Assembly: GCA_027021085.1 (NCBI GenBank)
Contig: JALUVB010000042.1
Location: 1 to 15,905, forward strand
Length of the DNA stretch: 15,905 bases
DNA from: a bacterium
GTDB taxonomy: Bacteria > CAIJMQ01 > JAADFP01
Reading direction: 5' to 3'
The translations under genes were made by a program, and so were the position numbers. Shown here in pieces: positions 268 to 15,454 of the stretch (within the stretch, counting starts at the first letter, position 1; each line of letters opens with the position of its first letter). The notes beneath the pieces are model-generated. The model saw nothing but the letters and a program-made list of their open reading frames with translations. It searched no databases and was not told the origin of the DNA.

Positions 268-3200
268 TTATTCAGATGCCCCACTACGATAATGCTCATA
301 CACCTCATCTGCACTCAAAGCCCGCTTGTAAATCCTCACCTCATCAATAACTCCCTTGAATTGATGGAAACCACCGGAGGGAGTTCCGGCCCCTATAACC
401 ACATTATACGCACTGGATTCAGGAGTCTGCCCCGGCTCGTTGTTTACCTCTACACCGTTCAGGTAGATATGCTCTCTTGTCCCATCCAGCACTCCTACCA
501 CGTGATACCATCTCCCGGTTTCTGTTATTGAATCAGGCGGAGTAATTACGGAGCGCTGTAAGCCAGCAATATCGTAAATAAAGTAGGCTTTTTTATCCTC
601 AATCCGTATGGCATATCCTCCCACTTTCCACTGGTCATTAGCCACCAGAGACTGCCGGGAGATTATATCCTCGGGCTTAAACCAGACTTCCACTGTTAAC
701 GGCCCGGTAATATCCAGGCCACTCCCTTCCTCCACCTTTACATAATCGTCCACACCATCAAAGGCTAATCCCTTCCCTATCCTTCCTTCCACCCAGCTGC
801 TGGATGGATCCATGTTCTTGAGGGTAGCATGATTATGATACCCGGAAGAATCCTGTGCAGTACTGCCTTCCCCTTCTTCAAAACGCCATTTACCCCGGGT
901 ATCTGCTGCAAGATAATGCTCATAGACCTCATCAGCGCTCAGGGCCCGGTTGTAAATCCTCACCTCATCAATAACTCCCTTGAACTGATAGAAACCACCG
1001 GAGGGAGTTCCGGCCCCTATAACCACATTATACGCACTGGATTCAGGAGTCTGCCCCGGCTCGTTGTTTACCTCTACACCGTTCAGGTAGATATGCTCTC
1101 TTGTCCCATCCAGCACTCCTACCACGTGATACCATCTCCCGGTTTCCGTTATTGAATCAGGTGGTGTGATTACAGACTGTTGCGCACCTGCAATGTTATA
1201 AATAAAGTAGGCTCTTTTATTCCCTATCCTTACCGCATATCCCCCCACTTTCCACTGGTCATTAGCCACCAGAGATTGCCAGCTGTTTATATCCTCGGGC
1301 TTAAACCAGACTTCCACTGTTAACGGCCCGGTAATATCCAGGCCACTCCCTTCCTCCACCTTTATATAATCGTCCACACCATCAAAGGCTAATCCCTTCC
1401 CTATCCTTCCTTCTACCCAGCTGCTGGATGGATCCATGTTCTTGAGGGTACCATGGTTGCTGTTGGGTGAATTGTCCCTGGCTACAAGCCCTTCCCCTTC
1501 TTCAAAATGCCACCTCCCCACAGGCAGAGCTGTCTTTTGTTTAATCAGTATCTGCCCGCTTAAAGGCTCCAGAGTGATTGAGCTCCCTACATCGTTCCCG
1601 TAAAGGTCATCATATTTCTGGTCAAGTATTACTTCTTCATTGGAAACCCTGTCATAATTTATGAAAATTGAGGAGTAGTCAGCTAAGTTATTAGCATAAG
1701 TTTCCACCTCATAAAGAGTAATATTGTCCAGCCAGAAGGTTGTATCCAGTGAGTTGAACTTAAACTCTAACCGGGCATCCGGCTCATTATCAGAAGCCTT
1801 CAGGATGAGAGCATATTCCTGCCTCTCCGGTTTCATGTCTACCGTCTCGGTTTCACTTAAGTAAGTGTAAGGAGATACATTGCTCCGCAGGGATACTTTC
1901 AGGGTATCTTCCTTGTAAGAATAAACACTGAAAGATATGCGGTAGTATTTATCCTTTTCAACCGGAAAACGGTAATAAACAAGACCTACATCCGACTGGG
2001 AATTATCATTTGAATACACCTTTAAAGCATTCCCATCCAGAGGAGAATTCTCGTCTATTGATATTTCAGTAGTGGAGGGCCAGGGCGTCCAGCCGGCAGT
2101 GGTGGGACTATCGAATTTACCATTCTCAATAAAATCAACCCCTCGATAAACCGTCTCATAGGGCTCAAAAGTGAAAAAGTTATCCAGGCTTTCTGAATAA
2201 ATATCTTCACCGGAATAAGCCTGCCATTCCGAAAGATGAAGCAGTTCTGTAACCCAACCATCTGCCACATATTTTCGTTTAAAGGCATAATTATTCAATG
2301 GCTGGGCATAGTAATTATATTCATAGTCCGCATACTCATCTATATTACCCAGCGAACTGGCATGTTCACTTACAGCAGCATCAGCAAAAGGAGCAGTGTA
2401 AAAGGTATTGTTTTCCACAATATTGCCGGAAATATCACCGGATGAAATCCGGAGAGCAGCTTTTCTGGCAGAATACACTAAATTTCCTCTTACAGTATTA
2501 TTGGAGGCATCATGCAGAAAAATACCCCAGGAGGCATTCCGTACAGTATTATCAGTAACAGTTACATCGCGGGAACGGTCATCCAGGTAAATACCCACAG
2601 CCTCTGAGGCTATAGTATCATCTTCCGGCCGGCCGTCCGCATTACCTATAACGTCTTCCACAATATTGTTACTAATGGTATCCCTATGGATAAATTGCCC
2701 ATAAATACCACCCCCGTCATCCAGGGTCAAACAGGTGCGTTTTACAATGTTACCCGTTATTAAATTATTCGAATCCGGACTATCCTCATATCCGCCTATG
2801 CGGATACCTATATAACCTATATCATATACTAAATTATCCTGAATAATTCCTTCCGAACCATTCCAGTACCAGATACCTTCGTTAGCGCAGTTAAACACTT
2901 CATTCCCGATGATTTTGGACAGGTAAGGACTCCTCAGAACAATGGCCCCGTCCTGTCCGTATCCTTGATATATATTCCATACCTTATTATTTTCCACGCT
3001 AATCTCACTACCGTTGCATAATCTTATCCCCTGCAACCCAATATTAGAAATATCGTTATTCACAATCTCTATATTGCTCGGCTTAGCCACATCTGAGAAA
3101 ACTATCCCGTACTGGGAAAAATTACGAATATCCAGATCTTCTATCCGCACATATTCAATACTTCTCTCACTGCTAAAACAGCTTGCTATGGTAGATACTT

Positions 3201-4962
3201 CCACTTTCTCTGTGTTAAGGTCTGTCCCAGCAGGCGGCCAGAAGTATAATTTGTCTGTACTTTCATCATAGTACCACTCTCCCGGCGAGTCCAGTTCCTC
3301 AAACTTGTTCTCCAGGTAATATCCCCAGCCTTCCCGGTTGCTAGAGGCAGTCTCACTATCTAATGTAATCAGACCATCATTTTTTATATAATCAATAACT
3401 TTCTTTTTCTCAATTCTCCAGGCCCAGGTGCGCATATATATATCAGCTCCATTCCAGTAATCATCCGGCTGGGTTAAATCATAGTCAACCACCTGGTTTG
3501 CCGGACTGTCCGCGTCTATGGTTAAATACCCCCTATTGGGATAACGCGCCAGGGTCTGCCTTTCCCCATTCAAAAACAACTGCGTAATTTTCTCTCCTAC
3601 TCCCGAAGCTACATAGATATTACTATCATATGCTGTCCATCCGGTTATTACCCTCGCACCGTTGATGATGGGTTTCGCTCCCTCCCCATACGCTCCAAAG
3701 GTAACCAACCTATCAGGAGCACCGAAAAAGTTTGTAATGCTACCATGCCACTCCCCCCCTCTCTTGAACAAAACCGTGGCACCCGGGCCAATATCATATT
3801 CGTTCAGCTTATCCAGGGTCCGCCAGGCAGTAGCCTCTGTAAGGCCGTCATTAGCATCATCTCCTCCCTCCGAATCAAGATAGACGGTCCCCAGTATTGT
3901 AGGCTTGCTCAAATTAAACATTGATACTTTATCCACACAAAGTTTCCCGCTATCGGTAGTAAACGTTATGAGAAATCTGGCATCTTCATCTGAGCCATTG
4001 CTTATTGCAGTAAATTCGTAGGGAGCCCACTTGGAAGTTATATTAAAACTCCGGGAGAAGTAGGTTGTATAGGGACTTGTATTTTTTCTTACCTTGACCA
4101 CAACTTCATTGCTGAGATTACCTTTCATCCATAAACGGATCTTATACTCGTCCCCCGCATTGACAGGAATACCGGTTTGGTAGAACTCTACGGTCCCACT
4201 CTCTGAGCTTGTGCGTTCTATTTCCTGGGCATTAACACCTTCATAGGGTGTACTACAATTTGTATAAATGTCTGCTCCCCAGGATAGCCATGAATAAGCT
4301 ATCCCGTTCCAGGATCTAAATCCCTGCTCAAAATCTCCGTTGATAAGTAAATTTAAACTCGTGGGAATGACCGAAACCTCCAGGTATGGATGCTTAGCAG
4401 TATCAGGATTTTCCTTGCTGTAGAAAGATACCAGGCGGTTGGCATCTGAGGGCTCATCGATTGTAGCCTGTTTCAGGCCCAGGCTGAGAACATCATCCTC
4501 CGCATTATTATTGCTCTCTACCAGCGACGTAACATCCCAGCTATACCAGCCGGCCTGGCTGATAAGCTTCTTTTCGCTGTACGAAGCATCCATCGGCGGC
4601 TCATTGATACCTGTTAACGTTTCTTCATCCCAGTTATCATCGCTAACCCCATATACTCCCAGATCTACCGGAGTGCCATCACTCAGACTACCAGAGAGCA
4701 TATGCAATGTTGCCGAGCTAATAATCCATCCATCCGGGATACTACTTAGAGAAAACTTGAGATACCCAAACATCTGCGTCTGCTTCCACTTTTCCCACCC
4801 CACTTTAAACCAGGTAGCCGTGCCTCCCGTCAAATCATATCCATCGTAAATTCCGGCATCGTCCGAAGGTTCAATGGTATAGATGTCTGCCTGAACTAAC
4901 CCACCAGTACTTACCAGCAAAATCACAGCAAAAAACAACCCCATCATAATACCTTTTTTCAT
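268..4962 (-). CDS. Giant secreted beta-helix protein with CBM96, CBM4/9-like and tandem LamG domains
   Basis: 1564 residues from ATG 4962; an upstream in-frame start at 5055 is rejected because ATG 4962 has AAAGGAGGG at good spacing and opens a clean signal peptide (residues 1-25, cut near VQA/DIYT). Domains in order: 26-200 DNRLRE/CBM96-like beta domain; 204-350 CBM4/9-like jelly roll (NLLINGDFEQG ... LCVDKVSMF); 358-590 beta-helix entry region (VYLDSEGGDDANDGLTEATAW, later LNGERQTLARYPN); 600-870 about nine parallel beta-helix coils with asparagine-ladder NN/GN turns; 940-1085 a second CBM4/9-like module; 1090-1145 small beta domain; 1149-1356 and 1357-1564 two near-identical LamG/concanavalin-like modules. 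The beta-helix plus binding modules fits an extracellular polysaccharide lyase or hydrolase (GH141- or PL-like), but the catalytic family and residues cannot be assigned by eye. No C-terminal anchor is seen. The gene lies between the prepilin and GH67N-like genes in the LacI-controlled operon. Confidence 0.85.
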   Translation of the reverse strand: MKKGIMMGLFFAVILLVSTGGLVQADIYTIEPSDDAGIYDGYDLTGGTATWFKVGWEKWKQTQMFGYLKFSLSSIPDGWIISSATLHMLSGSLSDGTPVDLGVYGVSDDNWDEETLTGINEPPMDASYSEKKLISQAGWYSWDVTSLVESNNNAEDDVLSLGLKQATIDEPSDANRLVSFYSKENPDTAKHPYLEVSVIPTSLNLLINGDFEQGFRSWNGIAYSWLSWGADIYTNCSTPYEGVNAQEIERTSSESGTVEFYQTGIPVNAGDEYKIRLWMKGNLSNEVVVKVRKNTSPYTTYFSRSFNITSKWAPYEFTAISNGSDEDARFLITFTTDSGKLCVDKVSMFNLSKPTILGTVYLDSEGGDDANDGLTEATAWRTLDKLNEYDIGPGATVLFKRGGEWHGSITNFFGAPDRLVTFGAYGEGAKPIINGARVITGWTAYDSNIYVASGVGEKITQLFLNGERQTLARYPNRGYLTIDADSPANQVVDYDLTQPDDYWNGADIYMRTWAWRIEKKKVIDYIKNDGLITLDSETASSNREGWGYYLENKFEELDSPGEWYYDESTDKLYFWPPAGTDLNTEKVEVSTIASCFSSERSIEYVRIEDLDIRNFSQYGIVFSDVAKPSNIEIVNNDISNIGLQGIRLCNGSEISVENNKVWNIYQGYGQDGAIVLRSPYLSKIIGNEVFNCANEGIWYWNGSEGIIQDNLVYDIGYIGIRIGGYEDSPDSNNLITGNIVKRTCLTLDDGGGIYGQFIHRDTISNNIVEDVIGNADGRPEDDTIASEAVGIYLDDRSRDVTVTDNTVRNASWGIFLHDASNNTVRGNLVYSARKAALRISSGDISGNIVENNTFYTAPFADAAVSEHASSLGNIDEYADYEYNYYAQPLNNYAFKRKYVADGWVTELLHLSEWQAYSGEDIYSESLDNFFTFEPYETVYRGVDFIENGKFDSPTTAGWTPWPSTTEISIDENSPLDGNALKVYSNDNSQSDVGLVYYRFPVEKDKYYRISFSVYSYKEDTLKVSLRSNVSPYTYLSETETVDMKPERQEYALILKASDNEPDARLEFKFNSLDTTFWLDNITLYEVETYANNLADYSSIFINYDRVSNEEVILDQKYDDLYGNDVGSSITLEPLSGQILIKQKTALPVGRWHFEEGEGLVARDNSPNSNHGTLKNMDPSSSWVEGRIGKGLAFDGVDDYIKVEEGSGLDITGPLTVEVWFKPEDINSWQSLVANDQWKVGGYAVRIGNKRAYFIYNIAGAQQSVITPPDSITETGRWYHVVGVLDGTREHIYLNGVEVNNEPGQTPESSAYNVVIGAGTPSGGFYQFKGVIDEVRIYNRALSADEVYEHYLAADTRGKWRFEEGEGSTAQDSSGYHNHATLKNMDPSSSWVEGRIGKGLAFDGVDDYVKVEEGSGLDITGPLTVEVWFKPEDIISRQSLVANDQWKVGGYAIRIEDKKAYFIYDIAGLQRSVITPPDSITETGRWYHVVGVLDGTREHIYLNGVEVNNEPGQTPESSAYNVVIGAGTPSGGFHQFKGVIDEVRIYKRALSADEVYEHYRSGASE
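291..888 (-). repeat. LamG tandem repeat, C-terminal copy
   Basis: This is the downstream copy of an in-frame direct repeat with an exact period of 624 bp (208 codons); the other copy is 915-1512. Bases 367-522 are identical to 991-1146 (156 bp), and 663-740, 742-789 and 791-826 are also identical to the other copy. The patch 523-662 is clearly more divergent. Confidence 0.95.
915..1512 (-). repeat. LamG tandem repeat, N-terminal copy
   Basis: This copy encodes residues from about 1149 of the giant protein (GRWHFEEGEG ...), with the motifs FDGVDDYIKV, VEVWFKP, GRWYHVVGVLDG and GVIDEVRIYNRAL typical of LamG/Laminin_G_3 modules. It is repeated 624 bp away. Confidence 0.95.
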
Positions 4963-4979
4963 CAAGATATCCCTCCTTT
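4958..4979 (-). repeat. Translation-start repeat, copy 2
   Basis: Identical over 22 bp to 238-259 and located at the start codon of the giant beta-helix gene. It fixes the start at ATG 4962. Confidence 0.8.
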
Positions 4980-5009
4980 TTCCTCTCCAAGATTTTTGCC
5001 CAATTATGA

Positions 5010-5042
5010 ATCTTCCCCGCAGTTTGTTGCTGCGGGGAAGAT
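5010..5042 (-). terminator. Strong 13-bp hairpin between prepilin and giant gene
   Basis: Bases 5010-5022 pair perfectly with 5030-5042 (core CTTCCCCGCAG / CTGCGGGGAAG) around a 7-base loop. It sits 45 bp after the prepilin stop and 48 bp before the giant gene's ATG. On the minus strand the stem is followed by TTCATAATTGGG, not a run of T. It is therefore a poor intrinsic terminator and may instead be an mRNA stabiliser, a processing site or a partial attenuator. The hairpin is certain; its role is inferred. Confidence 0.55.
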
Positions 5043-5086
5043 ATTTACTCCTCAATTTCCCTCTCTCTGGCTATAATCTACATTCT

Positions 5087-5839
5087 CTACCTGATTCTCC
5101 ACGGGCCCGAATCCCAGTGCGACTGTCCCACATAAGGATCCCAGATAGTGGCCTTATCCATAGGCTTTACATGACCATCACAGAAAAGAATGTTCACCAT
5201 CCCATTATGGCGGAAGTCTATGTTCATAAGCACAGGGTTAGGATCATTTAGACCATAAATCCCGTAGTCGGGATAATTGGGCATAAAATGGGTATCTGCT
5301 ATCAAAACCTGCTCAGAAGGGGCAACTATCTGGGCTTCCCTGCGATATCCGGAATAACCACTTCCTGAATCGAGCCCTCCTACAGCACGCTGGTACATCC
5401 CGTAAGCAGAATACACGGCATAAAACCTCTTTCCATCGTTGAGTGTAGTATTTTTATTTAAAGCCGGGTCCCAGAAAACACCCCCTACCCTGACAGTGTC
5501 AAACCGGCCAGCCCCATAATTGGGCGCTAAATCGCCCACGTAGGACTTCAACATGGTTACCCAGGTATAGTCATGCACAAGGTCATGCTGAGGATTATCC
5601 CAGTAACCCGAGGTTTTTAGCGGGAGATACCCATGGTAGTCGGTAATGTACATCCGCCAGCCCAGCCCTATTTGCTTCAGGTTGTTCATACAGACCGCCT
5701 GCCTGGCTTGTGCCCTGGCTCTCTGCAAGGCAGGCAGCAGCATGGCAGCCAGTATCGCTATTATTGCGATAACCACCAGGAGCTCTATCAGCGTGAAAGC
5801 TCCTTTTGCTCCCCACAACTTACGAATCTTACCCATCAT
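5087..5839 (-). CDS. DUF1559-type prepilin with H-X9-DG C-terminal motif
   Basis: 250 residues. The N-terminus is a type IV prepilin signal: basic leader ([11 protein letters not shown]), then [24 protein letters not shown] at 15-38 with Glu at +5 of the mature protein. The residue before the predicted cut is Ala rather than the usual Gly. The rest is a pseudopilin globular domain (NNLKQIGLG ... at 52-60) ending in the H-X9-DG motif: His211, nine residues, Asp221-Gly222 ([16 protein letters not shown]). This family is abundant in Planctomycetes, Lentisphaerae and related phyla; individual functions are mostly unknown, but they are thought to be processed by a prepilin peptidase and shown at the envelope. 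Start ATG 5839 has GGAGGTG six bases upstream and overlaps (ATGA) the end of a 25-codon ORF. It lies 132 bp after GH130 and before the secreted beta-helix gene, so it may help display or export that enzyme (inference). Confidence 0.93.
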
Positions 5840-5930
5840 CTCGCACCTCCTTTTTTCCTTCCCGATGTGTATCGGGATAGAAACCAGTTTTGCCTAACAA
5901 GTGCATACCTCATAACCCACTTTTTGCCAT
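5836..5930 (-). other. Two tiny overlapping leader ORFs before the prepilin gene
   Basis: An ideal Shine-Dalgarno (AAGGAGG, six-base spacer) precedes ATG 5930, opening a six-codon ORF (MAKSGL, stop at 5910). Its stop overlaps (ATGA) the ATG at 5913 of a 25-codon [23 protein letters not shown] and five more residues, whose own stop overlaps (ATGA) the prepilin ATG at 5839. The chain could couple prepilin translation to a leader, or be a relic of a lost gene, or be chance. The strong ribosome site is the solid part. Confidence 0.3.
5860..5877. repeat. 7-bp inverted repeat upstream of the prepilin gene
   Basis: TCCCGAT and ATCGGGA arms flank a GTGT loop. It lies 10 bp upstream of the prepilin Shine-Dalgarno sequence (5845-5850) and inside the 25-codon leader ORF. 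It could be an operator or a small mRNA hairpin next to the ribosome site. Confidence 0.4.
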
Positions 5931-5971
5931 TCCTCACCTCCTTATCCTGACTTCTATATTTACTTACCATT

Positions 5972-6958
5972 TCATCTAACATTATTTACGCAGAGACTTA
6001 TCAAATCATCCACCCTCGCCGTGGCTAAACAGACGCATTGGTCTGAAGCTCCATAGTAAATTCTTATTGTTTCCCCATAATCATCAAGAACAGCTCCTCC
6101 CGCAAACACCACGTTACCCACATCACCACTGCGCTCGTAGGGTTCTTCCGGAGATAAAATGTAGGGCATCGCCCGGCCAATAATTCTTGCAGGGTCGTTT
6201 AAATCAAGCAAAACGCACCCCAGCCTGTAAATATCCCCTGCTACTGTCTTGCGTACCCCATGATAAATCTCCAGCCACCCTCTTTCCGTTTTTATGGGAG
6301 GAGCTCCAGGCCCGATTTTGTTGCAATCCCAGTGCACGGGACGAGGCCCCATGACAAATTGATGCTTCCCCCAGTAAACAAGGTCCGGAGAATAGGAAAT
6401 CCATATACCCGGGGCAGTGTTAATCTCTCCCATGGGCCTATCAAGTCGCACATACTCTCCATTTATCAACTCGGGAAACAGGACAACATTACGATTGTCG
6501 GGTTCTGCTATCAGCGAGATTCTTTCAAAAGAGATAAAATCATAAGTCCTGGCAACAACCGGATGCACACCCAGCTCACTGTAAGCAGCATAAACAAGAT
6601 AATATGCTTCTCCAATTTTGCTCACCCTGGGATCAGAGAGTCCATAAACTTCATAGCGAGCAAAAGGTTCTTCCGTACTCGGAAGTAAAATCGGCTCGGG
6701 ATATATCTCAAAATGGACACCGTCTTTACTCCGGGCCAGCCCCAGGGCAGAAAATCCCACCTTATTTTCTACCCTGAAAACAAGTATTGTTTCTTCTCCA
6801 TACATGACAGCAGCAGGATTAAAAATTGAATTGCAGGAATAGGGAGTATCTTTAGCAGTCAGGATAGGATTCTCCGGGCATCTCTGCACAATATTCCCGC
6901 TGTCTTCCATCGGATAACGGATATCACTATTAAAATTTCCCGTTATAATCTGCTCCAT
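5972..6958 (-). CDS. GH130 family mannoside phosphorylase or mannosidase
   Basis: 328 residues, the usual length for the family, no signal peptide, so cytoplasmic. It shows the five-bladed propeller signature of GH130: NPILTAKD then NSIFNPAAV (30-51), a FRVEN strand (61-65), YGLSDPRV with the expected catalytic Asp109, NRNVVLFPE (155-162), KIGPGAPPI and LEIYHGV (214-235), YRLGCVLLDL, and NVVF...IRIYYGASD near the end. Family members act on beta-mannosides, commonly by phosphorolysis to give mannose 1-phosphate, for example from Man-beta-1,4-GlcNAc. Arg156, Asn157 and Lys214 sit where phosphate contacts are expected, but RLDRP (171-175) carries Asp where I recall phosphorylases having His (RLHRP). 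Phosphorolysis and hydrolysis cannot be separated here. The ribosome site is weak. It is the first gene after the predicted LacI-controlled promoter at 7005-7047 and so probably leads the operon. Confidence 0.92.
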   Translation of the reverse strand: MEQIITGNFNSDIRYPMEDSGNIVQRCPENPILTAKDTPYSCNSIFNPAAVMYGEETILVFRVENKVGFSALGLARSKDGVHFEIYPEPILLPSTEEPFARYEVYGLSDPRVSKIGEAYYLVYAAYSELGVHPVVARTYDFISFERISLIAEPDNRNVVLFPELINGEYVRLDRPMGEINTAPGIWISYSPDLVYWGKHQFVMGPRPVHWDCNKIGPGAPPIKTERGWLEIYHGVRKTVAGDIYRLGCVLLDLNDPARIIGRAMPYILSPEEPYERSGDVGNVVFAGGAVLDDYGETIRIYYGASDQCVCLATARVDDLISLCVNNVR

Positions 6959-7004: not shown

Positions 7005-7047
7005 TGCAATCGTTTACAGTTTAACATGACAAAACTACTTTTGTCAA
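7005..7047 (-). promoter_or_regulatory. GH130 operon promoter with LacI-type operator
   Basis: On the minus strand: -35 TTGACA (7047-7042), 18-bp spacer, -10 TAAACT (7023-7018), then operator TGTAAACGATTGCA (7018-7005), whose first T is the last base of the -10. The operator is a pseudo-palindrome around a central CG (five of seven pairs), as bound by LacI-family dimers, and would cover the start of transcription. A perfect 8-bp inverted repeat (TGACAAAA / TTTTGTCA, 7027-7046) overlaps the -35 and spacer and could be a second protein site. The matching copy at 8124-8166 makes this assignment strong. Confidence 0.75.
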
Positions 7048-8123: not shown

Positions 8124-8166
8124 TGAAATCGCTTACATGGTAGCATAAGAACAACACTCCTGTCAA
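8124..8166 (-). promoter_or_regulatory. Repressor gene promoter with matching LacI-type operator
   Basis: On the minus strand: -35 TTGACA (8166-8161), 18-bp spacer, -10 TACCAT (8142-8137), then operator TGTAAGCGATTTCA (8137-8124). It matches the GH130 operator at 12 of 14 bases and shares its placing exactly: same -35, same spacer length, and the last T of the -10 is the first base of the operator. This predicts autorepression of the LacI-family gene. Confidence 0.75.
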
Positions 8167-8637: not shown

Positions 8638-11379
8638 ATGCAGGAAATAAAAGAAAAAATTGAAGCCATAGAGAAGAAATGGAGAGAAGGGGGTAAAAGC
8701 AAAGAATTGGAGCCTCTCATTATTTCTCTAAAGGTATCATGTTCTCTTATTGATAATGATATTACTCAGAGACTCTGCTTTCTGAGATATAAAGCCGCGG
8801 TAAATCGTTCTTCCCTTCCCGAGGCAAGAAGAAAAGAACTGAAGAAAGAATTGAGGAATATAGTCAATTCTATCTCTTTACAGGAAGGAAAGAAAAAATT
8901 CTTAAAGAGCCTGGAAGATATACGCGGCGGACTTAATCCTTTTTCAGAGCTTGCCAGGAATTACACCATAAGTCTGGTTGCACAGGCTCATATTGATTTG
9001 GCCTGGCTGTGGCGCTGGCGGGAAACCGTAGAAATCTGCCGGGGAACTTTTCAGGGGGTACTGGATAGAATGAAGGAGTATCCAGAGTTTATTTATGCGC
9101 AGAGTCAACCCAAGACTTATGCATGGATGGAGGAATTTTATCCGGAAGTTTTTTCCCGCATAAAGGAAAGAGTAAGAGAAGGCCGCTGGGAAATCGTAGG
9201 GGGTGGCTGGGTTGAGTACGATGCGAATCTTCCCGATGGAGAATCCGTTATCCGCCAGTTGGAACAGGGAATGGTATACTATCAGGACAAATTTTCCGTT
9301 AGACCGGCAGTGGAATGGCTCCCTGACTCCTTCGGCTATAATTGGAATCTTGCCCAGATACTCTCTCGGGCTGGCATAAAGTATCTTATAGCCCAGAAGA
9401 TGAACTGGAACGATACAAATCCTTTTCCTCACCGTTTTTTCTGGTGGGAGGGGCCGGATGGCTCCCGCATCCTGTGTCTCATTCCCTGCACTATGAACCA
9501 GCCTATTGACCCGCTTTCCATGGTAGATTACCTAAAGCAGATGGATATAGCCACCGGATACCCGGACCTTCTCTGGCTCTTTGGAGTAGGAGACCATGGA
9601 GGGGGTCCCACCCGGGAAATGATGGAAGAGGTAGAAAAGTTAAAAAGAATCCCGGTTTTCCCCAACTTGAGGTACATAAGGGCTGAAGAGTATTTCCGGG
9701 AATTGGCGCACCAGCCAGATATCCCGGTCTGGAAGGACGAACTCTATTTAGAGTACCACCGCGGAACTTTCACCACACAATCGGAGGTGAAAAGATGGAA
9801 CAGGGAAACCGAAGTGCAATTACAGAACCTGGAAAAACTGGAAACTTTTATTAAGCCTTCTTCCGGTAACTTAGACCTGAGGAAAGAATGGCAAACCCTG
9901 CTTTTCCATCAGTTTCATGATATTCTTCCGGGAAGCAGCATCCGTCCCGTGTATGAGGATGCAAAAAAAGAATTTGAGGGTTTATGGGGAACTCTGGAAG
10001 CAAAAAAGAACAAACTTCTTTCTTCCCTGGAGAAGACAGAAGAGCAAAAGGGAGATATTATCTTGCTATGGAACCCTCTTCCCTGGGAACGAATTCATCT
10101 TTTAATAATAGATAAGAAGGGAGATAACGGCAGCCTATTTAATAAAGCAGGTAAGGTGTATCCCACCTGGGAAGCACAAGGTAAAATAAAAGCAGCGGTA
10201 AAACTTGCTCCCTGTGGAATTTCCACCTTTTACATTTCCAAGAGTGAAAATTATCCTTCCCCAGTAAAAACAACCTCGTTCTCCCTGGAAAACGAGTACT
10301 TTTATGTAGAATTAAATCCGAAAACGGGAAACTTATCCCGCATATATGACCGCAAAAGGAAAAAAGATATTCTCTCCGGTGAAGGCAACCGATTAATACT
10401 GCGGGAGGATAAGCCCAAAGATTGTGCTTCCTGGAACATAGAGTACACGGGGAGAGCGGGTGAAGCATGGAAAATTAGTTGTGAAAAGGGAGAAGACAAT
10501 TTTGAGGGAGTGCTCAAAGTTGAGAAAGGGTTTGTCTGGAAAGACAGCAAAAAGAAATATTTAGGGGACTTGCTTTTATCCCTTCCCGGAGGAGATTACC
10601 CCACTTCTTTCTTCACCCAGGAAATAATTCTTTATCCCGGCATCCCCTGGATTGATTTCCGAGTAAAAGTAGACTGGTGGGAAGACGAGCAACTTCTCAA
10701 GTTAGTGTTTCCCTTCAATGTAAACTCCACCCATGCCCTTTACCGGATGCCATACGGCATTATCAATAGGCCGGTTAAAAGAGAGACTCCCCGGGAAAAA
10801 GCAAAATTTGAGGTTCCTTCCCAGGGAATGGTAAGCCTAAGGGGGGAAGATATAGGGATAACTTTTCTTATAAAAGCAAAGTATGGATTCGAAGTAGAGA
10901 AAAACGAGGTAAGAGTGTCCCTTCTGAAATCCCCCTATTCAGAAAATAGAATCTCCTGTCCCGATATAGTAGTGGATAGAGGAGAGCATGTTTTTCACTA
11001 TCGCATTCATACCCATGACCCGGAAGAGAACCCGGTAAAACTGTGGTATGATTTCAACTATCCCCCTCTCTTCCTTCCTGCAGGCATCCAGGAAAATGAA
11101 CCACTATTCGCATTAGAGCCAGAAAATCTAATACTTGCTCACTATAAAAAACAGGGGAAGGAAATCCTGCTCAGGCTGGAAGAGACAAGAGGAAAGAGCG
11201 GTAAGGGAATTATCAGGACTTCTCTACCGGTAAAAGAAGCTTTTGAGTGTGATATCCTGGGTAAAACAGGAAAGAAGCTCACCACTAAAGGGAAAAACAT
11301 TTACCTTTCTTTCTCACCTTTTGAGATTCTCACCCTGCTCTTGAGAGTTTCTCCTCTTCTTCAAAAAGAAGAGAAATGA
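8638..11379 (+). CDS. GH38 alpha-mannosidase
   Basis: 913 residues with no signal peptide, so cytoplasmic. After a helical N-terminal region (1-105) the catalytic domain starts with the zinc motif AHIDLAWLWRWRETV (His118, Asp120). WVEYDANLPDGESVIRQ follows at 191-207, then WLPDSFGYN, in which Asp230 is the expected nucleophile and zinc ligand, and QKMNWNDTNPFPH. GVGDHGGGPTR is at 316-326. The fourth zinc ligand is His427 in LLFHQFHDILPGSSI. A three-helix middle domain (about 375-455) and a beta-rich C-terminal domain (about 530-905) complete the family layout, and length is normal. It hydrolyses terminal alpha-linked mannose, so with GH130 it could dismantle a mannose-rich oligosaccharide (inference). 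Start ATG 8638 has GGGAGGAG upstream. It diverges from the LacI-type gene, but no matching operator is seen before it. The HD-GYP gene follows on the same strand. Confidence 0.95.
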   Translation: MQEIKEKIEAIEKKWREGGKSKELEPLIISLKVSCSLIDNDITQRLCFLRYKAAVNRSSLPEARRKELKKELRNIVNSISLQEGKKKFLKSLEDIRGGLNPFSELARNYTISLVAQAHIDLAWLWRWRETVEICRGTFQGVLDRMKEYPEFIYAQSQPKTYAWMEEFYPEVFSRIKERVREGRWEIVGGGWVEYDANLPDGESVIRQLEQGMVYYQDKFSVRPAVEWLPDSFGYNWNLAQILSRAGIKYLIAQKMNWNDTNPFPHRFFWWEGPDGSRILCLIPCTMNQPIDPLSMVDYLKQMDIATGYPDLLWLFGVGDHGGGPTREMMEEVEKLKRIPVFPNLRYIRAEEYFRELAHQPDIPVWKDELYLEYHRGTFTTQSEVKRWNRETEVQLQNLEKLETFIKPSSGNLDLRKEWQTLLFHQFHDILPGSSIRPVYEDAKKEFEGLWGTLEAKKNKLLSSLEKTEEQKGDIILLWNPLPWERIHLLIIDKKGDNGSLFNKAGKVYPTWEAQGKIKAAVKLAPCGISTFYISKSENYPSPVKTTSFSLENEYFYVELNPKTGNLSRIYDRKRKKDILSGEGNRLILREDKPKDCASWNIEYTGRAGEAWKISCEKGEDNFEGVLKVEKGFVWKDSKKKYLGDLLLSLPGGDYPTSFFTQEIILYPGIPWIDFRVKVDWWEDEQLLKLVFPFNVNSTHALYRMPYGIINRPVKRETPREKAKFEVPSQGMVSLRGEDIGITFLIKAKYGFEVEKNEVRVSLLKSPYSENRISCPDIVVDRGEHVFHYRIHTHDPEENPVKLWYDFNYPPLFLPAGIQENEPLFALEPENLILAHYKKQGKEILLRLEETRGKSGKGIIRTSLPVKEAFECDILGKTGKKLTTKGKNIYLSFSPFEILTLLLRVSPLLQKEEK

Positions 11380-11427
11380 AACAGGAGAAAATTTGAAAGC
11401 CAGTATCATTTGTGCTACATTTATCCA

Positions 11428-13710
11428 GTGAGAGACGATTCTCCAGAAAAGAAAGTAGCTGAAGCTTTATCCGGAAAGGAAAGGAATCCCGGAGATTGGA
11501 AGAAGGTCTTTCTCTTCTTGGTTCCTCTCGTACTCTTTCTTTTTTCTTCCTGGGCATCCAACCTGAGATTAATCAAACGGACAGACGATTTTATATACGA
11601 TTTCTTTTTCCGCTGGAATTACGCTCCCAGAGAGAATGACATAGTGCTGGTCGGGATAACCCAGGAATCTCTCAAGGTATTAGGCAAGTATCCCTGGCCC
11701 CGTACAATATACGCAAAACTTATTGAGAAGCTCACTGACATGGGTGCCAAGATTATTGTATTTGACATATATTTCAGCGCACCTTCCGGCAATAAGAATG
11801 AAGACAAAATATTTTCGGAAAGCATAAAAAAATCGGGCAGAGTTATTTTGCCTATCTATGCCAAGTTAGAGGAAAAAGATAACGTGGGTGGGATATACCG
11901 GGTAGGGAAATGGAAAGTAACCCACAATATCCCCTCCCTGGAAAGAAATACCCTGGGAGTAGGGCATATCAATGTAATTCCCGATGAGGATGGAGTAGTG
12001 CGCACCGCTCCCATATTTATTCAAGAAGATAAACAGCTTTACCCATCTATTCCCCTTATTACCTACATGAGATTTCGAAACATACAAAATATCCAGTTAA
12101 AAAAGGGATACCTTCTCAGCCAGGGCAATAAAATCCCTTTAGATTCGCATAACCGCCTGATAATAAATCATTACTCCAGGCTGTCCATCCCCCTCTTTCC
12201 CTTTTACAAGGTTTTACAGGGCAAAGTCTCCCCTTCTTACTTCAAAGGGAAAATAGTAATAGTGGGACAGACCACAGAAGGATTGCCCAATGCTGATATA
12301 TTGAATACGCCGGTGGGAAGAAGATTTGGTGTACTTATTCTTGCGAACACCCTTTCTTCCCTCCTTGCCCATGACTTTATCCGCCCCGTGCCGGACACTG
12401 TTTACAAGTTATTTTCCCTAATCTTCATTTACGGACTCTTTGTGATTTTTCTTGTTTCCAGGAAACTATCTTTTTCCATGTTCATGTTTCTGGTCTCCAT
12501 GATTCTTTTAGAAGGGATTTCTTTTCTGGTATTCTTTAACCTGTCATACACCTTTAAATTCATGCCTATTGCCCTTACCGTATTCCTGCAACTCTGGTAC
12601 ACCACTTACCTGAATTACCGGAACATCTCCCTCTTACTTACCCACCGCGATACCCAGTTGAAAACCGTGGAAGCAGTTTCGCAGATTGCCAAAGAGGTAA
12701 AGGGGATACCATTAATGAAAACATTGATAGAAACATTGGGGAAAACCTTAAAAGTTTCCTGCGGTATACTAAGAGAAAAAGGAGAAAGCGGAGATAAGTA
12801 TCCTCCCCTTGCCTACTACCTTCCCACAAATATTCCTCGCATAGAATTATTCCACATAGATTCTGAGATAATAAACCGTCTAAGCCAGCACAAAATCGAG
12901 CTTATAGAAAACGCCACCACCATCCAGAATGAAGGATTTATTTACATAGCGTCTCTTCTTAAAGTAGGCGACGAAATAGTGGGAGCTCTCTCCCTGTACA
13001 GAAAAGGAAAGAAAAGATTTACTCTGGAAGAAAAGCGTCTCTATATCACCATCGCACCCCAGATATCTGTTGCTCTTAAGAACCTGCAGCTATATCGGGA
13101 TACCAGAAGGCTGTTTATTGAATCCATACAGGCACTAACTGCTGCAATCGATGCGAAGGACCCCTACACAGAGGGACATTCAGAAAGAGTAACCAAGCTT
13201 TCCTTACAGATTGCAAAAAAGATGGGCTTTACAGAAGAAGAGCTTGAAAGGCTGAGGTTAGCCGCATTACTGCATGACATAGGTAAAATCGGCGTGGAGG
13301 AAAGGATACTCAGAAAAGAGGTTCCCCTCAATGACGAAGAATACGAAAAGATAAAAATGCATCCTGATGTAGGAGCACGCATACTTCTTCCCATAAGAGA
13401 ACTTAAGGAAGACGTAATTCCTGCCATGCGTTCACACCATGAGAGATGGGATGGGAAAGGTTACCCGGGGAAATTGAAAGGGGGCAAAATACCCCTTTTT
13501 GCCAGGATAATCGCTGTAGCAGATGCATTCGACGCCATGACCTCTGACCGTCCTTATCGAAAAGCCAAGAGTGACCAGGACGCCATCGAAGAAATCCTGA
13601 AGAATTCCGGCACTCAATTTGACCCAAAAGTAGTAGAAGTTTTCAGGGAGCTGGTAAAAAAGGAAAAAAAGAAACCGGGGAGGGAAGCAGGAAGTGTCGA
13701 TGAAGGGTAA
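11428..13710 (+). CDS. Membrane CHASE2-GAF-HD-GYP cyclic-di-GMP phosphodiesterase
   Basis: 760 residues from GTG 11428. Layout: TM1 at about 26-43; extracytoplasmic CHASE2 sensor 44-319 (DIVLVGITQESL, PWPRTIYAKLI, KIIVFDIYFS, GVGHINVIPDEDGVVR, GKIVIVGQT); three TM helices at about 327-344, 348-366 and 376-394; GAF-like domain 409-554 (ASLLKVGDEIVGALSLYRKG); HD-GYP domain 559-749. All key HD-GYP residues are present: HD at 616-617 in LHDIGKIG, HHE at 670-672 and DGKGYP at 675-680, so it should hydrolyse cyclic di-GMP. The basic tail KKEKKKPGREAG is encoded by DNA that also forms the opposite-strand terminator. The start is uncertain: TTG 11410 is in frame but far from AGGAG at 11383-11387; GTG 11428 overlaps (GTGA) the end of a 12-codon ORF that does follow that AGGAG. 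The gene is in the same frame as GH38, separated by its TGA. Confidence 0.93.
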   Translation: MRDDSPEKKVAEALSGKERNPGDWKKVFLFLVPLVLFLFSSWASNLRLIKRTDDFIYDFFFRWNYAPRENDIVLVGITQESLKVLGKYPWPRTIYAKLIEKLTDMGAKIIVFDIYFSAPSGNKNEDKIFSESIKKSGRVILPIYAKLEEKDNVGGIYRVGKWKVTHNIPSLERNTLGVGHINVIPDEDGVVRTAPIFIQEDKQLYPSIPLITYMRFRNIQNIQLKKGYLLSQGNKIPLDSHNRLIINHYSRLSIPLFPFYKVLQGKVSPSYFKGKIVIVGQTTEGLPNADILNTPVGRRFGVLILANTLSSLLAHDFIRPVPDTVYKLFSLIFIYGLFVIFLVSRKLSFSMFMFLVSMILLEGISFLVFFNLSYTFKFMPIALTVFLQLWYTTYLNYRNISLLLTHRDTQLKTVEAVSQIAKEVKGIPLMKTLIETLGKTLKVSCGILREKGESGDKYPPLAYYLPTNIPRIELFHIDSEIINRLSQHKIELIENATTIQNEGFIYIASLLKVGDEIVGALSLYRKGKKRFTLEEKRLYITIAPQISVALKNLQLYRDTRRLFIESIQALTAAIDAKDPYTEGHSERVTKLSLQIAKKMGFTEEELERLRLAALLHDIGKIGVEERILRKEVPLNDEEYEKIKMHPDVGARILLPIRELKEDVIPAMRSHHERWDGKGYPGKLKGGKIPLFARIIAVADAFDAMTSDRPYRKAKSDQDAIEEILKNSGTQFDPKVVEVFRELVKKEKKKPGREAGSVDEG

Positions 13711-13737: not shown

Positions 13738-14196
13738 TTACTGTAAATCCTCGATCTTATTTTCCAGATTTTCTACCTTGTGAGATAGTTTCTTTATTGC
13801 CTCTTCCTGTTCTTTGAGTTGTTTATTCAACCTGCCAATCATCTGTACCAATCTCTTCTCTCTTTTCTCCTTCTCACGTGCAAGCGATTGCAATCTTTCT
13901 CTTAACTCTCCCCTGGGCAAAGCTCCTCCGCGTTTCTCCAGACCTCTCTTGGGAACTCTCCCCTGTGGTGTCTGCTGCCATTGGCGACCCTTCTGCAACT
14001 GCATACCAGGCTTCATCATGTTCTGCCCTTTCCAGGGACGCTGCACCAGTGACCTGCGCATCATGAGAAACCTGCTGGGCTTTATCACTTTACTTCTTAT
14101 CAGGTGATTGTTAACTATCGAAATAGTTGTCCCGGCAGCTCCCAGAAGAAACGCAAGAGTTACAAAGATACTGAGGATTCTGGTTTCCTTATTCAT
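13738..14196 (-). CDS. Membrane-anchored basic coiled-coil protein, function unknown
   Basis: 152 residues from ATG 14196, chosen because AGGAGG lies exactly 8 bases upstream; the longer GTG start at 14205 overlaps that Shine-Dalgarno. A single N-terminal hydrophobic segment (about 5-27, ILSIFVTLAFLLGAAGTTISIV) is followed by a region rich in Arg, Lys, Gln, Met and Pro (about 35-95) and then a long charged helix, about 95-152, with heptad spacing (LREKRLVQMI-like, LNKQLKEQEEAIKKL, VENLENKIEDL) that should form a coiled coil. I do not recognise a family. The gene overlaps the upstream exported-protein gene by 8 bp (ATGAATAA), implying translational coupling. The terminator at 13655-13728 follows. 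Confidence 0.8.
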   Translation of the reverse strand: MNKETRILSIFVTLAFLLGAAGTTISIVNNHLIRSKVIKPSRFLMMRRSLVQRPWKGQNMMKPGMQLQKGRQWQQTPQGRVPKRGLEKRGGALPRGELRERLQSLAREKEKREKRLVQMIGRLNKQLKEQEEAIKKLSHKVENLENKIEDLQ

Positions 14197-14840: not shown

Positions 14841-15454
14841 TTATCTTCCGGAAAGTTTTAAGTACGCTTCATTGTAATAGAGTGCATTATCCACGGGAGT
14901 GTTCGCGGGGATATGATTTCCCACTGCCATGATAAACCCGGGGTATTTCTTGCCTATATCCATGCAGCGTTTTACCTCGCTGTAGATATCCTCCTTGCTC
15001 CCGCTAAGCAGAATCCTGCAATCTGCATTACTTACAAACCCATGGGTTTTGCCGTATTTTTCCGCGAATCCCGCCATATCGCAACTCGGCTCCATAACCA
15101 CCATATGCACACCACACTCTACAATATCAGTAAAAAACATATCGTACTTTCCATCCGAAGTAAGAATCAACTTTTTACCTGCCTCCAGAATAGGTTCCCA
15201 TAACTTTTTATAGTAATGGAAGTTGTTTTCCCGTATTTCTTAATATCCGGCCCCGTGGGACACATCCACATAAAAACATAATCCCACATTCTCACAAATT
15301 CCTTGCTGGCTATTTCCCTGTCTTCCTCCCGGGAAGTATCAATCCCGGTTACTGCTTTGACCAGTTCCCAGTGCCGATGTGCTGAGTACTCTGTTCTTGG
15401 CACTCTTTCCGCAAACCTTAAGTTTATTGCCTCCCATCCGCTTTCACAACTCAT
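14841..15454 (-). pseudogene. Uroporphyrinogen-decarboxylase-family gene with internal deletion and frameshift
   Basis: Two fragments of one protein are joined out of frame. The first (15454-15167 reading frame) gives the family N-terminus: GWEAINLRFAERVPRTEYSA, then HWELVKAVTGID and MWDYVFMWMCPTGPDIKKYG. The second frame picks up at about 15234-15170 (FHYYKKLWEPILEAGKKLIL) and continues TSDGKYDMFFTDIVECGVH, VMEPSCDMAGFAEKYGKTH, VSNADCRILLSGSKEDIY, then VGNHIPANTPVDNALYYNEA to stop 14841. Family members are about 330-350 residues; about 130 residues of the middle, including most of the barrel core, are missing between about 15215 and 15245. Related proteins act in methyl transfer or haem synthesis, but this copy should be inactive. 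Its ATG overlaps the DUF1844 stop (ATGA). A sequencing or assembly error is less likely than decay, since a deletion is needed as well as a shift. Confidence 0.8.

Follow-up and report, generated by a model that had tools for sequence, protein, structure and literature searches.

Genes for a repressor of the LacI or GntR family, for a prepilin of the DUF1559 (H-X9-DG) family, and for a giant, secreted, carbohydrate-active protein stand next to each other on the same strand, and their sequences indicate that they very probably form one co-regulated cassette. The window considered here, a stretch of 15,905 nucleotides, is the complete contig C42 of a 1.93-Mb genome in 307 contigs (G000, ~94% complete). 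The link between prepilin, repressor, and glycan enzyme drawn in the original prediction is real, and recurs in G000 and in at least three other lineages. In several little-studied bacterial phyla, the pilin gene is placed time and again between a sugar-sensing repressor and a large secreted enzyme that degrades sugars, which suggests that the cell produces the pilin only while a particular polysaccharide is eaten.

On the minus strand of the window, the genes follow the order LacI, GH130, H-X9-DG (DUF1559) prepilin, and 1564-residue secreted protein (Table 1). All the parts of the arrangement first described, with the prepilin between a GH130 enzyme and a secreted beta-helix protein, were confirmed on that strand. 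The beta-helix of the giant protein scores 77.9 bits, and its GH141_M match (PF21231) is borderline (27.3 bits for a cut-off of 27, over 32 residues). We saw no signal peptide in GH130, whose closest solved structures are TM1225 and the mannooligosaccharide phosphorylases; it reached none of the equivalog HMM cut-offs for substrate specificity. The divergently encoded GH38 has the Ams1-type alpha-mannosidases as its nearest solved relatives and is, by its family, a probable substrate partner of GH130. The presence of these two families is what suggests a mannose-containing target glycan.

Table 1. Features of the prepilin locus in the window.
Feature	Position	Strand	Evidence or remark
N-terminus of another secreted protein, cut off by contig end	3..245	-	ORF list
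Secreted protein, 1564 aa	ATG 4962, stop 268	-	CBM96 - CBM4_9 - GH141-like beta-helix - CBM4_9 - 2x LamG
H-X9-DG (DUF1559) prepilin, 250 aa	5087..5839	-	PF07596, PF07963, TIGR04294
Prepilin 5' leader with hairpin CCCGATACACATCGGG and strong Shine-Dalgarno AAAAAAGGAGGTGCGAG	5840..5880	-	common to other cassette prepilins of the genome
GH130 mannoside phosphorylase family enzyme	5972..6958	-	PF04041 1e-58, 199 vs cut-off 26 bits
LacI-type operator TGTAAACGATTGCA before GH130	7005..7018	-	abuts -10
Predicted sigma-70 promoter of GH130-prepilin-beta-helix operon, TTGACA-18-TAAACT	7018..7047	-	10/12 match + TG extension
LacI-family repressor, 345 aa	7064..8101	-	PF00356 5.8e-19, PF13377 2.4e-37
LacI-type operator TGTAAGCGATTTCA before lacI	8124..8137	-	abuts -10
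Predicted sigma-70 promoter of lacI, TTGACA-18-TACCAT	8137..8166	-	10/12 match + TG extension
GH38 alpha-mannosidase, divergently encoded	8638..11379	+	PF01074 2.4e-80

Other parts of the window have features of their own. The 81 residues encoded at the contig end have no Pfam match. A plasmid search gave no match. Right behind GH38 lies a CHASE2 - HD-GYP protein (11410-13710), likely a c-di-GMP phosphodiesterase with an extracellular sensor. Two short overlapping ORFs on the minus strand (14841-15454), one of them weakly similar to methylcobalamin:coenzyme M methyltransferase, look like a broken gene for a UroD-type methyltransferase. Arrays of short intergenic repeats with a spacing of ~7 or 14 nt (AGTAGTGAGTAG, GTCTATAGTCTA, CAGTGAACAGTGA) are dispersed over this genome (8304-8426 in the window; L011, L012, L015, L054, L055) and over that of a relative of the same genus (L088, L089 of G001).

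Joint control of the locus had been proposed in the form of one predicted repressor-controlled promoter, and this is well supported by the region's best promoters. A scan of 8.5 kb returned 21 promoter-like sites, of which the top two on the minus strand are those before lacI and GH130, and each runs into a LacI-type operator: the position where the -10 element ends (8137 and 7018) is also the first base of the operator. Exact TGTAARCGATTNCA operators occur in the window only at these two starting points, with a third site at 13879 that has one mismatch. A relaxed pattern, TGTAANCGNTTNCA, has only 4 sites in the entire genome, and the two outside the window flank an 85%-identical lacI copy on contig C261. 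Between GH130, the prepilin, and the giant gene, the minus strand showed no terminator-like site, and sites within genes are at chance level. GH38 is no more than a candidate for regulation by the same LacI. The lacI copy on C261 (L050, 1542-2679) has both operators and lacks GH130, prepilin, and enzyme genes behind it; it is apparently a stripped or decayed cassette.

We defined cassettes by a LacI or GntR repressor that lies upstream of a prepilin on its strand and is separated from it by no more than one gene. G000 has nine PF07596 prepilins, and six of them have such a repressor where 0.09 would be expected under random placement (p 9e-11; this and the following p-values for repressors presuppose that regulators are placed uniformly, and the positive genomes were in part reached through leads, so that the values should be read as a ranking of strength and not as exact). 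The repressor is the immediately preceding gene in five of the six cassettes, the window being the one with an intervening gene (GH130), and on contigs C258 and C33 the stop of the regulator meets or overlaps the ATG of the prepilin. A secreted protein of at least 400 residues follows the prepilin in 4 of 10 cases, compared with 4 of 165 other genes of the genome (p 3e-4). The giant gene is directly downstream in four cassettes and second downstream on C107, while the cassette on C292 stops at the contig edge. The partners include GH123 with LamG (C258), F5/8C (C101), a GH42-type protein (C107), and CBM9 (C33). A sigma-70 pattern stands directly before the first gene in 7/7 cases, against 10/164 ORFs overall. 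A palindrome scan at a strict threshold found nothing, and a later search for inverted repeats gave good candidates for C33, C258, and C292 only.

The arrangement extends beyond this genome. Prepilins of a genome of the same family (G002) adjoin GH98, glycoamylase, and probable solute-binding proteins. In a genome of another phylum (G021), a repressor lies upstream of 8 of 28 prepilins (p 2e-8), and a large secreted protein comes after the prepilin in 9 of the 16 cases scored, compared with 12 of 64 other genes. Upstream repressors were also found for 11 among the 61 prepilins listed, of 106, in Capsulimonas sp. RYN_270 (G045; p 5e-9), and for 11 of 18 in Phycisphaerae bacterium SMBSF08 (G049; p 7e-15). 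Lentisphaerae (G041, 3/33) and UBP3 (G046, 2/12) gave weaker signals. In SMBSF08 the genes are ordered as LacI, PEP-CTERM protein, prepilin, and then a PL8 lyase, a heparinase II/III, or another giant. One of its loci (L299), with LacI, CBM96, prepilin, a protein of 1044 aa, and GH130, has the gene set of the window in a different order, and its GH130 is 39% identical to that of the window over 322 aa. Overall, the partner families comprise GH123, GH42, GH98, glycoamylase, CBM9, F5/8C, PL8, and heparinase II/III. The PEP-CTERM proteins of SMBSF08, several with LamG or a CBM (CBM96), are encoded immediately 5' of the prepilin in all 11 cassettes checked (L295-L310), which puts exosortase-anchored glycan binding beside a pilin.

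Conservation of the neighbourhood in relatives holds in part: the cassette recurs across several lineages but is limited to some of them. The genome of the same genus (G001, 86% complete) lacks LacI, and no cassette was seen at its four prepilins. None was seen in the sister family (f2) either, where prepilins adjoin housekeeping genes; in the f2 genomes a secreted giant is downstream in 1 of 23 cases. As cassettes were seen in neither, prepilins of this protein family must have other uses too. Two further genomes (G042, G043) showed no arrangement of repressor and prepilin. Among 80 named DUF1559 loci, mostly of Planctomycetes and Verrucomicrobia, LacI or GntR is found within 8 kb in three. 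These results led us to reject the idea that DUF1559 is a general glycan-operon gene, and the neighbourhood cannot account for most of the orphan H-X9-DG prepilins. In the tree, the syntenic housekeeping prepilins common to the family of the window (f1) are apart from the cassette prepilins, which have no orthologues.

The protein itself is a recognisable prepilin. It matches PF07596 (46.3 bits, cut-off 23.3; 7.6e-12), which places it in the H-X9-DG/DUF1559 family, the N_methyl profiles PF07963 (29.7 vs 21.2 bits; 4e-7) and TIGR02532 (27.3 vs 16.3), and, at its C-terminus, the H-X9-DG motif profile TIGR04294 (21.4 vs 19 bits). Its class III leader ends before FTLIEL. At the predicted cleavage site (5797-5839), the residue at position -1 is Ala instead of the usual Gly, as also on C101, C107, and C33, and hence in 4 of the 6 cassette prepilins of the genome. 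The scores are far below the cut-offs of the T2SS pseudopilin equivalogs (GspG, 30.6 vs 88.85; GspH, 25.6 vs 80), and below those of the major-pilin equivalogs as well. The AlphaFold model is weak (mean pLDDT 65): it has a long helix (17-67) and four strands, with the H-X9-DG motif on a small sheet, and we saw no glycan-binding site in a model of this quality. All its structural neighbours with Z of at least 2 are type IV pilins, the best with a Z of only 5.2; Foldseek gave no significant match in the PDB, and a PDB profile search returned pilins only, via the helix.

The paralogous prepilins of G000 have the ribosome site, leader, and helix almost in common, and their bodies diverge: the 5' modules, including the same Shine-Dalgarno region, are up to 85% identical in DNA over 168 nt. 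A hairpin of -11 kcal/mol or lower before the ribosome site is found in four of the six cassette prepilins (window, C258, C33, C292) and in ~16% of 73 control genes, a suggestive enrichment at most; it possibly serves the mRNA stability of an abundantly made subunit. The T2SS and T4P clusters are on other contigs (C25, C79, C155), and the machinery for export or pilus assembly in the genome includes GspE and GspK over cut-off, four secretins, and one prepilin peptidase. One of these clusters (L052, C25, 12601-14491) has four GspG-like pilin genes in tandem behind GspE/GspF, an unusual multiplication of a gene of pseudopilin type in one operon.

On balance, the prepilin may well be a subunit of a fibre or pseudopilus that serves the use of glycans. 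With slightly better than even confidence, we read the whole as a modular cassette for polysaccharide use, with a substrate-induced and exchangeable pilin built by common machinery. A sugar freed from the target glycan, in the window probably one containing mannose, would bind LacI, and release of the repressor would turn on the enzyme genes and the prepilin together. The prepilin would then be cut by the one prepilin peptidase detected in the cell and assembled by the common type II secretion or type IV pilus machinery. As the N-terminal module is common across the genome, one machine can take all these prepilins, while their bodies vary between cassettes. The resulting subunit, exchangeable and induced by the substrate, could bring the cell surface and the secreted binding and degrading proteins to the glycan. 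We favour an inferred role in attachment to the substrate and display there over the export of a particular enzyme.

Enzyme-specific export was the earlier idea: the body of each prepilin would recognise the giant protein of its own cassette and form a dedicated T2SS pseudopilus, or its tip, to export it. Most cassettes do have one prepilin per enzyme, the giants have Sec-type signal peptides and no anchor that we noticed, and T2SS parts are present in the genome. Furthermore, the GH123 cassettes of two phyla have prepilin bodies that are reciprocal best matches (32% over 156 aa). A first all-genome test of pilin and enzyme was confounded by neighbouring pilins and by poor ORF calling in high-GC genomes. 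A cross-phylum permutation test of the match between pilin and partner gave p 0.011 for the four closest partner pairs but p 0.22 for all homologous partners. In SMBSF08, prepilin bodies that are 91% identical accompany a PL8 lyase in one case and a heparinase II/III in another, and PL8 lyases that are 50-64% identical are paired with unlike prepilins, which argues against a fit to one enzyme and for an exchangeable, co-induced part. Strict co-evolution is thus not supported, and pilin bodies generally do not track the enzyme. From the original notion of a substrate-specific pseudopilin, produced jointly with an enzyme that it may export or present, the joint production remains, as promoters and operators fit joint control, but enzyme-specific bodies are not supported. 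We regard a dedicated pseudopilus as unlikely.

A little less likely again is the absence of any functional link, in which the genes of an expanded pilin family, each preceded by the strong ribosome site and leader, hitchhiked on duplicating operons of repressor and enzyme. The highly alike 5' modules of the paralogues, the C261 lacI copy that has both operators and no operon, and the lack of visible cassettes in G001 are consistent with this. Yet separate lineages show the same order while their repressors (LacI, GntR) and enzymes differ, and the family's syntenic prepilins stay by housekeeping genes, outside cassettes. Finally, it is improbable that DUF1559 is an envelope sugar-binding protein, for sensing or capture, instead of a fibre subunit, as the Pfam name SBP_bac_10 and some papers would have it: ABC sugar-binding proteins are near some cassettes (L217, SBP_bac_1; L092 and L096, judged by their N-termini), DUF1559 genes of R. 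baltica were described as a solute-binding family (PMC2754498), and detergent-soluble fractions of Tuwongella contained 25 such proteins (PMC8567305), but the prepilin has an intact class III leader and an intact pilin helix, its profile and fold neighbours are pilins, and the Pfam scan gave no periplasmic-binding-protein match.

There is a broader proposal, to which we give somewhat less than an even chance: a DUF1559/H-X9-DG pilin in the place of SusC/SusD would be the hallmark of a multi-phylum type of polysaccharide utilisation locus (PUL), made of a repressor, a surface glycan-binding protein (CBM or LamG; PEP-CTERM in Phycisphaerae), a substrate-induced pilin, and a giant lyase or hydrolase. 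If true, this would give part of one of the largest orphan pilin families of the PVC group its first testable role. For DUF1559 prepilins, which count among the most expanded protein families in Planctomycetes and related phyla, no role is known. Their repeated presence in an operon with a sugar repressor and a named enzyme tells, for each prepilin concerned, on which substrate and under which growth condition a phenotype can be sought. In phyla without the SusC/SusD marker, the cassette also offers a genomic marker by which to find loci for glycan use.

Several known systems share some of these traits. The pullulanase secreton of Klebsiella has maltose-regulated pul genes, including that of the pseudopilin PulG. 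Like the cassettes, it puts a glycan enzyme and a pseudopilin or prepilin under the same sugar control, but its regulon takes in the entire T2SS gene set, whereas the cassettes have single prepilins, one per enzyme, away from the machinery clusters. In the PULs of Bacteroidota (SusC/SusD), each substrate has its own set of genes for a regulator that responds to sugar, for glycan binding at the surface, and for degradation. This per-substrate organisation is common to both, and the differences lie in the prepilin, in a regulator that is LacI or GntR, and in SusC/SusD, of which no protein of the type was found among the cassette proteins scanned. In Ruminococcus albus, pilins or cellulose-binding proteins linked to pili are tied to the attachment to polysaccharides, as are the tapirins of Caldicellulosiruptor, and these pilus-type proteins are encoded near glycan-degradation genes; unlike the cassette prepilins, they are not DUF1559 and do not come as one pilin per substrate with its own repressor.

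The modular type IV pilins PilB and PilC of S. sanguinis serve to present parts that bind ligands, among them concanavalin A-like lectin domains (PMC8179133). There the ligand-binding part is on the pilin, whereas in the cassettes LamG and CBM domains are on neighbouring secreted proteins and are not grafted on the prepilin. The expanded SBP_bac_10/DUF1559 prepilins of Planctomycetes (PMC8567305; PMC10632474) belong to the same protein family as that of the window: P. limnophila has 68 DUF1559 paralogues, two of them essential (PMC10632474), and T. immobilis has 91 proteins with both domains (PMC8567305). Signal-peptide genes flanking the DUF1559 genes of Tuwongella have been described in the literature. 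Most of the Planctomycetes loci sampled here lack a repressor, unlike the cassettes. We found no description of the unit of repressor, prepilin, and enzyme in the accessible literature (subscription papers were outside its scope), and priority is uncertain. In summary, the unit is a CAZyme gene cluster that comes with a pilin of its own; the cassette itself is firm, and the function of the pilin is what we infer.
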